45,335 bases of DNA from an uncultured Bacilli bacterium. Lineage in GTDB: Bacteria > Bacillota_I > Bacilli_A > RF39 > UBA660. Position numbers and translations under genes: made by a program. Within the stretch, counting starts at the first letter, position 1; each line of letters opens with the position of its first letter. Positions 5,856-42,259 of the stretch are shown here, piece after piece. The stretch spans positions 1 through 45,335 of the forward strand of contig CALVIU010000005.1 of the NCBI GenBank assembly GCA_944331835.1, given 5' to 3'. The notes under the pieces are model-generated. The model did not search any database. It worked only from the letters and a program-made list of their open reading frames with translations, and was not told where the DNA came from.

Positions 5856-6477
5856 ATCTTTCTAATTCTGCGAAGTCATAAACTTCTTCTTCACTAGGTC
5901 TTTCATTAAATTCTATTTTTTGGACTTTTGATACACTTTTACCAACGGCATCTGTAGCTGTATATTGTATCCAGTATTGATCTTTACCAGTCTCTGAGTT
6001 TACTTCGTGATAAACTTTATGAGTAACTGTAACTCCTGGTTTATCATCTTCTACTTCTAAATGATCATATGTAATTTCATCAATACTATTAACGTAATAT
6101 ACTGTATCAAAAAATTTTAGTGTTGGAGCAGAAATATCTTCTGGATTATTTATATCATCTAAGTAATCAGAACTATTAGAATTAAATATCCAGCCATATT
6201 TATCTTTTTCATACTCTATTTTATACCATTGAGTATTACCAACTGTTTCGACTTCAATGACCTTATAAACCTCTCCCTTTTTAACTTCTCCTAGAATATC
6301 AGAAGTAGCACTTGCCTCTTTACGAATATTGATATAATCATTTTCGACCTCAATATGCCAACCCTTTTTTATTTCTTCAATATTTCTTTCTTCCATTTTT
6401 CCTGAAAAAATATAATAAGCACCAAAACACCCACCTATAACTGCTAAAATAAGTACAATTATTAATAACTTCTTCAT
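5854..6477 (-). CDS. SH3b-domain surface protein
   Basis: This 207-residue protein has an N-terminal membrane helix (about residues 4-24). A bacterial SH3 domain follows at about residues 42-105 (YINIRKEASATSDILGEVKK, then WYKIEYEKDKYGWIFN). SH3b domains usually bind cell-wall peptides or sugars. The second half is a beta-rich region without a named domain. No hydrolase domain is present, so it is probably a wall-contacting or scaffold protein. It forms a separate minus-strand unit. Confidence 0.75.
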   Translation of the reverse strand: MKKLLIIVLILAVIGGCFGAYYIFSGKMEERNIEEIKKGWHIEVENDYINIRKEASATSDILGEVKKGEVYKVIEVETVGNTQWYKIEYEKDKYGWIFNSNSSDYLDDINNPEDISAPTLKFFDTVYYVNSIDEITYDHLEVEDDKPGVTVTHKVYHEVNSETGKDQYWIQYTATDAVGKSVSKVQKIEFNERPSEEEVYDFAELER

Positions 6478-25149: not shown

Positions 25150-26057
25150 TTAGTCAGTAATCAAAATCGGGTCACTGGCAGTGCCAGTTCCCCCAGCATA
25201 AGCCACCGAAGACTCAAGATAAAAGGACGGGCGCACGCCACCGTACTCCGCAGTACTGCTGTTCACACCAGCGTTCATAACCTGGCCTGTGTACCGCACG
25301 ACGAACGCATTAGTCGTATTGTTCGAACGGCGGGAAATTGTCCATTCCGTTACTCCCATATACATCCAATTATTATCATCGTTTGTACTATTATTGTAAT
25401 TAGCTAAACCCCTATTCCAGTTTTCTGAACTAACTGCATAGCCATAATCACTTATATACATTAACCCTACTTTTGCACTATATGTTGTGATACTTGAACT
25501 GCTTCCTAGTTCCGTTGTATAGTATTGTTTTGCTGTATTTGTCCCCCTACTTTCCATTCTATTGTTGCTATCATGCTTGCCCATTCACCTCCTATTGTAT
25601 TTAAATATGTCCCATTTAATATTTCTGTATTTAATGTGCTATTGCTCCAAATGTTACTTTCAATACTGCTAGAACCACTCCAATAATAAGTTGGTATACT
25701 ACTTAAACTTCCTTTATAGTAACTAGAACTTGGTGTTCCATTTCTTGATGGCGCTGTTCCGAGTGTGCTTTCTCCTGCATAATCATGTTTTATTAGTTTT
25801 ACTTGGCCATCAAATACTCCTATGATTCGGTATAAATTATCATAAGGGCATGGAGTTACATCACTTCCAAAACATACATAATTATTAGGGTCTCCACTAA
25901 ATCTATATGAGTTAACACCAGCTTCTTGATCAGCATTGGTATATGTTCCTGTTCCATCATGATAGTATAATCCATTTTCGCCATCTGTTCCTGTATATAC
26001 CTCTGTCGTTATATAATCTGCTAACGTTAATAATGCTACATCAAAATACACATAACA
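25150..26057 (-). pseudogene. 3' part of a broken surface-protein gene, with frameshift
   Basis: This is the continuation of the gene whose start lies at 26392-26736. From 26057 it encodes CYVYFDVALLTLADYI, then YRIIGVFDGQVKLIKHDY, and runs in one frame to a stop near 25506. The downstream part (TNTAKQYYTTELG, then VGLMYISDYGYA and FYLESSV) is in another frame, starting near 25542. Both parts align with the intact paralog at 40334-42259. The break is at a run of five Gs (25543-25547); one more G would rejoin the frames. The last 130 bases are GC-rich (56% at 25221-25320, against about 30% at 25621-25720). Either a real mutation or an assembly error at the G run is possible. Confidence 0.82.
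25212..25345 (-). other. GC-rich, A-poor-wobble 3' segment (possible variable region)
   Basis: In sense direction, 49 codons from the one after the EWT triplet contain only one ending in A (ACA), while the gene body prefers A and T endings. Bases 25221-25320 are 56% GC. The pattern fits a diversity-generating retroelement variable region, where adenines are mutated. No reverse transcriptase or template is in the window, so this is inference. Confidence 0.4.
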
Positions 26058-39073: not shown

Positions 39074-39185
39074 AACTTTTTTAGTTCCCATTTATGGCTG
39101 GGTTCACCGCTTTATTAGTTTCCATTTAATGGCTGGATTCACCGCTTTGTTAGTTCCCCATTTTCGGCTGGGTTCACCACTTTTT
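39074..39185 (-). ncRNA. Type III antitoxin RNA repeats (ToxI-like)
   Basis: Three tandem repeats of 34-35 bases (starting at 39081, 39115 and 39150 on the plus strand) share GGTGAACCCAGCC and ATGGGAACTAA in the sense direction. CCCA near the start of each repeat can pair with TGGG further on, as in the pseudoknot of ToxI RNAs. The middle repeat has GGTGAATCCAGCC with a matching change to TGGAAACT, so CCCA/TGGG becomes TCCA/TGGA, a compensatory change. The toxin should cut between repeats and be inhibited by them. Confidence 0.88.
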
Positions 39186-39186
39186 A

Positions 39187-39204
39187 ACAACTACCTTAGT
39201 AGTT
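39187..39204 (-). promoter_or_regulatory. Hairpin and likely promoter zone before the antitoxin repeats
   Basis: AACTAC and GTAGTT form a six-pair hairpin at the 5' end of the repeat RNA. A TATAAT box lies just upstream on the minus strand, but I see no convincing -35. Confidence 0.4.
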
Positions 39205-40166: not shown

Positions 40167-40284
40167 AAAGGGGCATAACATGCTAGTCATATATGACAAA
40201 TTAAGTTTCTACTTCATCAAATTAATCTAGCAAACCTTTTTCTCAATACCACAGATTCACACTTGCTTTTTTATGTTGATAACT

Positions 40285-40323
40285 CGGCGGCCTCCGGGCG
40301 GATTGAGAGCCGCCGGCGGAGGC
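40285..40323 (-). other. Very GC-rich hairpin behind the TasA-like gene
   Basis: CGGCGGC (40285-40291) pairs perfectly with GCCGCCG (40309-40315). An alternative fold pairs GCCTCC (40290-40295) with GGAGGC (40318-40323). No run of Ts follows at once. In a genome this AT-rich the element stands out. It begins 11 bases behind the stop codon of the gene with the GC-rich 3' end, the place where retroelement targets often carry a hairpin. Confidence 0.65.
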
Positions 40324-40333
40324 TTAAAGGCCA

Positions 40334-42259
40334 TCACACTGCAAGGCGATATGGATCACTTGAAGTTCCTGTTCCTCCGCTAAGTTCTACATTAGATTCT
40401 AGATAAAAGACCGGTCTAGCGGCATACCCGAGGCGAGCGCTATAGCTGTCCAAGTAGCCGTTGCTGCTCACATTAAACACGTAGTCACTGCTCGACGAAT
40501 TCGGAGTTACTGTCCATTCATCAAGCTCCATATATAGCCAATTGTTTGATGTTATTGTTGAACTGTCATAATCGCCTATAACTGTTGCCCACGCATCGGG
40601 ACTTGCGGCATATCCATAATCGCTTGGATACATTAATCCTATTTCATCGCTATATGTAATTGGATTACTTCCATATCCCGTGTTATTTCTTTCGCCATTA
40701 TAAAATGCTTTGGCTGTATTATCCCTTGATGTCATTCCTCCCAGATGCCATGTTGTTTCTGCTATTAAGTTTTGCCATGTTGCACCTAAATAATTCCAAT
40801 AATTGGTATTTAGATTTATTGTATTAAATTCACTTGTTGTCCAGTTATTTGATCCATACGTACTTACACTTGTATCATAATTCCATCTATATGCTGCTAT
40901 TGTACTTGTATCCATACTTCCTTTATAATTTGAAGTTGATTGATTATATGTACCATAATAATCTCTTCCATCCGTTCCAAGCATATCACTTGTTGTATAA
41001 TCGTTCTTTATTAATTTTACTTTTCCATCAAATACTCCGATGATTCTATATAGGTTTTCTGCTGGACATGTTTCTTCATCATTTCCAAAGCATACATAAT
41101 TAATTGGATTTGCTCCTGCATATCGATATGAATAATCTTCTGCATCGAGTACAGCAGTTTCAATAGTTCCACTACCTACATTAATCATTATAACTGTGGA
41201 ATATACTGTCATTGCTGCATATCCACTACATGATTCTTGTGATACCGGAGTATTATTATTCATATCTGTATATACAGTCGCTCCACTAGTGGTTGTTTTA
41301 CAAGTTCCACCATCCCATGTTACTTCTTCAACTATACCTTCTGCTAAACCGTCGGTAATTACTGATGCATCATAATACATACCCGCAAATGAATAAACGG
41401 TGTTACAATCTTCTGCATTTGTTGACGGAGCGCCATCAGGAAAACTTAACACTTGGTTGCCTTCAAACATACAATATTCATTTTCACTAGTATATGTACC
41501 ATTATGATAATATAATCCATTTGATTCTGGATTTTCTTCGTTATATAACCTTGCTATATCACATGCCATTGTGCCTGGCTCACATATTTCATGATAATTT
41601 GTCTCACCCCTGCTTAATATTATTTCAGCATCTAATGTACTCCCGCCATTTTCTGATTGATTGGTTGTTAAATTTATAAACGTTACTGTAAATATCCAAT
41701 CTTGTTCTGTTGCATCTGTACTTGAACTTGATGTTATTTCATAATTGCTTGCTATATTAATTAGACCAGATGCTGTTGTTATATCAAAACCTTTAGTAAT
41801 AGTTCCATCAGCATTTTCAGCTTCAACATATTTTAAATCGCTATTTGCAAGTTTTGTAACGGGATTTCCTTCTGGATCTGTTATAGTAAGTACTATCTCT
41901 GGCTTGTTATCTTCTGTTGTATAGATGTATTCATTTGTATTTATTAAAAAATATACATAATAATCAAATGTTGCACTCTTATTTGTGGAATTGGCAAGTA
42001 ATGATGCTGTTCCTGTTGCTGTGTCTGAAAGTCCTCCACCACCTTCAACTACATTAAATTGAGTTGGGTTTAGAGTTATATCCTTATCAATACTAAATTG
42101 TAAGTTATCGGTTGTATCTGCTGTTATATTAACATTGCCTATAGCACTACCAGATATTTGGGCTACTATATAAGCAAAAGATATACCTATAAATACTACA
42201 AGTACACTTACTAAGATTATTATTTTTTTACGCTTATCGTTTAATTTTGTTTGTTCCAT
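40334..42259 (-). CDS. TasA-like surface protein with hypervariable-looking C-terminus
   Basis: This 641-residue protein has a signal or anchor helix (about residues 13-33) and a TasA-like beta domain (to about 225; paralog of 12826-13464). A Cys-containing middle follows (CEPGTMACDIARLY). The C-terminal domain from about 400 (YRIIGVFDGKVKLIKNDY, EIGLMYPSDYGYAAS, RPVFYLESNVELSGGTGTSS) also occurs in the pseudogene at 25150. The last part before RPVFYL is 55% GC (40411-40510) against 28% in the body (40801-40900). Thirty codons in a row there have no A in the third place. An adhesin or binding protein diversified at its C-terminal domain is a possible reading. A TGT-extended TATAAT lies upstream. 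Confidence 0.7.
   Translation of the reverse strand: MEQTKLNDKRKKIIILVSVLVVFIGISFAYIVAQISGSAIGNVNITADTTDNLQFSIDKDITLNPTQFNVVEGGGGLSDTATGTASLLANSTNKSATFDYYVYFLINTNEYIYTTEDNKPEIVLTITDPEGNPVTKLANSDLKYVEAENADGTITKGFDITTASGLINIASNYEITSSSSTDATEQDWIFTVTFINLTTNQSENGGSTLDAEIILSRGETNYHEICEPGTMACDIARLYNEENPESNGLYYHNGTYTSENEYCMFEGNQVLSFPDGAPSTNAEDCNTVYSFAGMYYDASVITDGLAEGIVEEVTWDGGTCKTTTSGATVYTDMNNNTPVSQESCSGYAAMTVYSTVIMINVGSGTIETAVLDAEDYSYRYAGANPINYVCFGNDEETCPAENLYRIIGVFDGKVKLIKNDYTTSDMLGTDGRDYYGTYNQSTSNYKGSMDTSTIAAYRWNYDTSVSTYGSNNWTTSEFNTINLNTNYWNYLGATWQNLIAETTWHLGGMTSRDNTAKAFYNGERNNTGYGSNPITYSDEIGLMYPSDYGYAASPDAWATVIGDYDSSTITSNNWLYMELDEWTVTPNSSSSDYVFNVSSNGYLDSYSARLGYAARPVFYLESNVELSGGTGTSSDPYRLAV
40405..40512 (-). 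other. Possible diversity-generating variable region
   Basis: From ACT CCG AAT to GCC GCT, 30 consecutive sense codons lack A in the wobble position; A endings return directly after (AGA, CTA, GAA). GC content is 55%. This fits adenine-directed mutagenesis of a codon set kept free of wobble A. No template repeat or reverse transcriptase is present in the window. Confidence 0.4.

Follow-up and report, generated by a model that had tools for sequence, protein, structure and literature searches.

The window, i.e., the whole stretch of DNA analysed here, comprises 45,335 nucleotides and is contig C5 of the genome of an uncultured Bacilli bacterium (1.25 Mb, 58 contigs, 90.8% complete). This genome is referred to as G000, and other G-numbers denote further genomes of the genus. 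The following features of the window bear on a possible link to a diversity-generating retroelement (DGR):

40334-42259, minus strand: candidate target (variable protein) gene, an open reading frame of 641 amino acids.
About 40413-40510, best-supported core 40415-40504, minus strand: putative variable repeat (VR), recognised by ungapped homology to DGR template repeats (contig C32 of the same genome and congener G013) and by adenine-specific differences.
40416-40429, minus strand: 3′ end of the VR, a GC-rich non-A segment reading GGGTATGCCGCTAG, the expected place of an IMH.
40290-40323, minus strand: GC-rich hairpin GCCTCCG..GGCGG..CCGCC..CGGAGGC, which begins 10 nt past the stop codon (TGA) and has a DNA fold of −13.6 kcal/mol.
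40274-40285, minus strand: conserved block GAGTTATCAACA immediately after the hairpin, found behind seven of the eight class A targets of this genome (classes given below).
25150-26051, minus strand: second target-like gene (L020), split by a frameshift, whose VR-like segment is nearest to the template on contig C3 (class B).

Composition of the 3′ end and predicted fold

The 3′ end of the candidate target gene differs sharply in composition from its surroundings. The GC content of 40411-40510 is 55%, whereas the window as a whole has 28.3% and the gene 34.6%, and only four 100-base stretches in the window reach 55%, two of which are the VR and its hairpin. An uninterrupted run of 30 codons lacks a wobble A (40418-40507), while the next longest run in the gene is seven codons and none of 5000 shuffles reached 30. 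Both figures had been given in the first-pass annotation and were exact on recount; it had also reported a further gene in the window whose C-terminus matches, and this is likewise real, being the frameshift-split gene listed above. The segment GGGTATGCCGCTAG at the 3′ end of the VR is the same in L004, L005, L006 and the G013 template, and the C32 template reads GGCAATTCTGCCCG at this place. Between 38994 and 39275 the window also holds a tandem repeat of three imperfect units of about 37 bases (39077-39190; TTAGTTyCCATTTATGGCTGGGTTCACCGCTTT).

An inverted repeat CGGCGGC/GCCGCCG had been placed 11 bases past the stop codon. It is present (40285/40309), but the named arm starts about 18 nt after the stop, and the more stable stem is the listed one, in which GCCTCCG pairs with CGGAGGC and GGCGG with CCGCC. 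As RNA, this is the strongest 3′-flank fold of the 37 long open reading frames in the window (−24.8 against a median of −5.8), and the hairpin contains the 40-mer with the highest GC content of the window (80%). Against dinucleotide shuffles the DNA fold gives a z of only −1.35, because composition alone accounts for much of the energy; conservation is the better argument for this structure.

The N-terminus of the encoded protein has one hydrophobic, membrane-type segment, judged by eye. Neither Pfam nor NCBIfam gave a family over the cut-off for the gene, and a PDB sequence search named none. An AlphaFold2 model of the last 230 amino acids, built from an alignment of 42 family members, reached a pLDDT of 90.7 and a pTM of 0.86. 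The top fold match from VIA-align was 9qa6 (IgA peptidase residues 62-284; Z 12.8), followed at Z 4-6 by formylglycine-enzyme-like and C-type-lectin proteins, the matches in this range including CarF, PvdO, a Bacteroides fimbrial protein, the Lcl C-terminal domain and many C-type lectins; Foldseek alone gave weak fold matches. With moderate confidence, the modelled C-terminal domain can be assigned a C-type-lectin-like fold. The lists of fold matches contained none of the known DGR variable proteins, which we do not count against a DGR interpretation.

Retroelement loci, templates and the dispersed target family

Three RVT_1 genes were found in the genome, of which two are intact (contigs C3 and C32) and over the cut-off. 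Both carry the motifs LPIGNxxSQ, in place of QGxxxSP, and YMDD. By sequence, the solved structure closest to the C32 reverse transcriptase (RT) is 8ub7_A (E 2e-14), labelled 'Reverse transcriptase', which we take to be the BPP-1 DGR RT. Each intact RT is preceded by an Avd-like open reading frame and another small one, the latter matching MutS domain I at C3. The Avd genes of the two loci match phrog_3206, 'Avd protein of DGR' (E 8e-11 and 5e-9), and, below the curated cut-off of the family, NCBIfam DivGenRetAVD (NF033474; E 8e-12 and 2e-6); a match to bAvd PF22296 (E 6.5e-7) is also below cut-off. The third RT gene is a fragment (L001, G000:C40:4358-4930) that is interrupted by a stop codon, and its surroundings hold no DGR parts. 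The template repeats and the VRs that template-aware alignment assigns to them are as follows:

C32:11045-11143, minus strand: AAC-rich template repeat adjoining the RT (template A), reading NSSNSNNVFNVNNNGNLNNNNANNGNSAR.
C3:5919-5983, plus strand: AAC-rich template repeat adjoining the RT (template B), reading SRNSDNTNNAFNVNNTGYVNNNNVNNTNAVRP.
Class A/A′ VRs: L010 and L012, which adjoin the C32 RT; L007; and the window type, L004, L005, L006, L008 and L009.
Class B VRs: L011, L015, L016, L017, L018 and, weakly, L020.

A short motif, AAGGACA...ATTATCC, stands behind both templates (L003 near 1125-1090, minus strand; L039 near 6080-6110, plus strand) and also in congeners; it could belong to the spacer of the template RNA.

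When the last 70 amino acids of the window gene were used as a query, 24 places in the genome matched, including the C32 template itself. About 14 hold VRs recognisable by template-aware alignment, and the remaining places have the domain but fit no template. Five close copies of the C-terminus of the window gene, together with its 3′ hairpin, lie on five other contigs. Targets that adjoin an RT differ from their own templates at almost no sites other than adenines (0/49, 1/59 and 0/63 mismatches). The fit of L020 to template B is weak, with differences at 16 of 37 adenines and 13 of 55 other sites. The first-pass annotation had supposed a dispersed target family served by an element elsewhere, and this is borne out by RT, Avd and template repeats on other contigs, by the scattered template-related VRs and by changes at template adenines.

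In several pairs of target genes the VRs are identical (L075 in G005; L074 in G012; L017/L018 on C3 and C16 of G000). The identity extends several hundred bases upstream and ends shortly past the gene, which suggests gene conversion or recent duplication between targets.

Among the 30 congeners, compared as one genome per species, a DGR-type RT was found in 23, and all 30 have 10-40 copies of the C-terminal domain. Copies also occur in genomes where no DGR RT matches, e.g., 40 in G024, which had none at E 1e-20. At about the same site in G012:C17 (L074) and G028:C43 (L072), the template repeat is interrupted by over 3 kb of inserted DNA that holds three tyrosine-recombinase open reading frames in a row; one end of the insert reads GTCCGATAA and, in G028, the other end reads TTATCGGAC. 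This insert resembles a recombinase-in-trio element.

Adenine-specific differences and the source of the variable repeat

A same-genome search for a template repeat, as had been proposed in the first-pass annotation, thus returned two, on C32 and C3, but neither matches the window VR. The better of the two, template A, differs from it at 16 of 35 adenines and at 15 of 60 other sites. Five remote VRs have their non-A differences from template A in common, and when their consensus was used as a query in relatives the best match (95%) was an intact template in G013. The window VR differs from this template at 14 of 34 adenines and at 3 of 56 other sites (p=4.4e-5), and four further copies gave p-values of 6e-6 to 5e-7; pooled over the five copies, differences fall on 88 of 160 adenines and 20 of 260 other sites (p=4e-27), where all these p-values assume independent sites and, the copies being related, indicate ordering and not exact values. 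By template base, the pooled substitution rates are 0.55 for A, 0.06 for C, 0.08 for G and 0.09 for T. Compared in pairs, the five copies are 35% identical at template adenines and 96% at the remaining VR sites, with 82% identity upstream and 89% downstream. Of the non-A columns of the VR, 6 of 52 vary, versus 53 of 188 flank columns (p=0.017; p=0.09 for wobble positions alone, with the same caveat on independence). The 96% identity at non-A sites beside flanks of 82% and 89% indicates that a single template brought the VR frames of the copies into line once the genes had already diverged. We conclude from these comparisons that at least five dispersed copies appear to have been rewritten independently from one common template. 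Since this most likely happened after the genes had separated, retrohoming probably acts in trans. Writing in trans is also visible in G013, where the remote target on C17 fits the intact template of its own genome, differing at 18 of 36 adenines and 1 of 58 other sites (p=1e-8).

The C32 locus is orthologous to loci in G013 and G029 (RT 80-91% identical, with the same large downstream open reading frame), at which the template is of type A in G000 and G029 and of type A′ in G013. At 11 diagnostic non-A sites, the VRs that adjoin an RT match their own template, while the remote VRs fall into two types common to several species. The diagnostic strings, PPPAPPPPPPP and AAAPPAAAAAA or AAAPPPAAAAA, occur in remote targets of G000, G029, G013, G007 and G027, and the DGR-A locus of each species examined has a single template that exactly matches neither string. 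The five VRs of the window type and both tested remote VRs of G029 are of type A′ at 10 of the 11 sites; at these sites the window type agrees fully with G013 C17 and with the remote VRs in G029. G000 L007, G013 C22 and C14, G007 and G027 have the other type.

Searches for a better-fitting template covered several sources. In the 90.8%-complete assembly of G000, only the two known templates emerged, whether from a DNA search run to E 10 or from an AAC-rich pattern that allowed three mismatches; a short extra match on C23 was rejected as it falls in a DnaJ-like coding frame. None of 145 genomes of the family held an exact fit. With the few patterns used, no viral contig contained an exact template core, and one distant RT relative (25% identity) was seen there; these contigs gave no sign of a phage-borne element. 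The template that wrote the window VR may have been lost, replaced or left unassembled.

On sequence grounds, we regard it as very probable that the gene at 40334-42259 is a remote DGR target and that its GC-rich segment is the VR. The contrary explanation, that no retroelement acts on the gene and that an ordinary surface-protein family owes its diversity to selection and gene conversion, could draw on the size of the paralogous family (10-40 copies per genome) and on recombination, which does occur, since neighbouring targets in G005 and in G012 have long stretches of identical sequence in common. However, the differences are found at template adenines, while the C, G and T sites next to them, including synonymous ones, are spared, and selection at the protein level cannot create such an asymmetry in DNA, so we consider this explanation extremely improbable. 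If the gene is a DGR target, it could still be an orphaned one, its VR having been written by a former type A′ template at the same locus that was later replaced by type A, so that rewriting has ceased and the gene is left with its last variant. To this we give an even chance. It agrees with type A templates in G000 and G029 where G013 has A′, with the type A′ character of the window-type and G029 remote VRs at the diagnostic sites, and with the 0-1 non-A mismatches of RT-adjoining targets to present templates compared with 6-13 for remote VRs, and there is a precedent in Treponema denticola SP32, where a remote target that fits the template of another strain was described as a likely leftover (PMC4891356). 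Yet about 9% of the genome is unassembled, leaving room for a second template, the reading frame, hairpin and scaffold of the window gene are intact, and the flanks vary more than the non-A sites of the VR, which argues that rewriting went on after the copies had separated. More tentatively, and with slightly less than even confidence, we suggest that the remote VRs of the genus form an archive of template turnover, due either to a still unseen dedicated trans template or to template alleles that were repeatedly swapped between species while remote targets kept the old ones.

The role of the hairpin is a separate question. The first-pass annotation had stated that known retroelement targets need a hairpin just downstream of the variable region. 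A GC-rich hairpin indeed recurs behind targets in several species, but here it lies about 89 nt past the VR, compared with 4-34 nt in the phage DGRs described (PMC3240598, Guo et al. Figure 5). Among the class A targets examined, those of G000, G013, G029, G012, G022 and G028 (C43) have the same hairpin 8-13 nt past the stop codon; in G004, G005, G016 and G026 another stem sequence, still paired, occupies the same place. In most copies GAGTTATCMACA then follows it. RNAalifold found only two pairs with changes on both sides, and the unlike stems align poorly; we base the case for conservation instead on the differing yet paired stems that G004, G005 and G026 have at this position. The block GAGTTATCAACA was also considered as an independent dispersed repeat and rejected, as its other copies lie inside the coding sequence of unrelated genes or have no hairpin. 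A mere transcription terminator that travels with the gene would be expected to keep such a constant 3′ position, and the distance from the VR and the loops, mostly of 5-9 nt and not of the GRNA kind of phage DGRs, would suit it as well. Nevertheless, no T-run follows the hairpin, several family members that do not fit a class A template have none (C2 and C50 of G028; the class B targets C14, C28 and C48 of G000), and different targets within G004 and within G005 have one stem sequence in common. A terminator is a serious candidate that we do not favour, and a role of the hairpin in target recognition is plausible.

Proposed mechanism and comparison with known systems

Under the DGR interpretation, template RNA from a distant chromosomal DGR would be copied by an error-prone RT-Avd complex with misincorporation opposite adenines, and the mutated cDNA would replace the homologous 3′ segment of a gene for a membrane-anchored surface protein. 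Up to about 18 codons of the C-type-lectin-like domain could be altered in this way, leaving the scaffold untouched. The template codons are mostly AAC or AAT, and therefore changes yield many residues and no stop codons. The hairpin would take part in retrohoming, and the target protein is presumably displayed on the surface, where it would bind ligands on the outside.

This kind of system is already known, and the window gene is an added case with a record of template turnover. What the family offers is a genome of about 1.25 Mb with some 14 template-related VRs for two DGR loci, in a genus whose genomes each carry 10-40 copies of the target domain. As non-A sites record the template that wrote a VR, the last rewriting of remote targets and the exchange of templates between species become directly testable here. 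Remote targets of this sort are missed by large DGR surveys that require RT and VR on one contig, as the surveys themselves state (PMC8144416).

There is a close likeness to the DGR of Treponema denticola, which has seven dispersed TvpA-type targets (PMC4891356). Both combine an RT and template locus with several remote VRs, adenine-linked differences and VRs that fit a foreign template; however, the present genome has two template classes and some 14 template-related VRs within 1.25 Mb, and its accessory gene is Avd and not HRDC. Several DGR loci with remote targets are also found in the multi-target systems of Trichodesmium erythraeum and Thiohalocapsa PB-PSB1 (18 TR/VR loci and 15 targets, respectively), where remote diversification was inferred from reads (PMC8867640, PMC10907252), whereas here the host is an uncultured member of the Bacilli with a small genome, the targets are probably membrane-anchored and no conflict-system domains were recognised in the window target. 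With the DGR of Bordetella phage BPP-1 the system has in common the RT, Avd, template, an adenine-specific VR at the 3′ end of the target and a GC-rich hairpin downstream (PMC3240598); it departs from it in a target far from the element and in a hairpin that is more distant from the VR and has longer loops.
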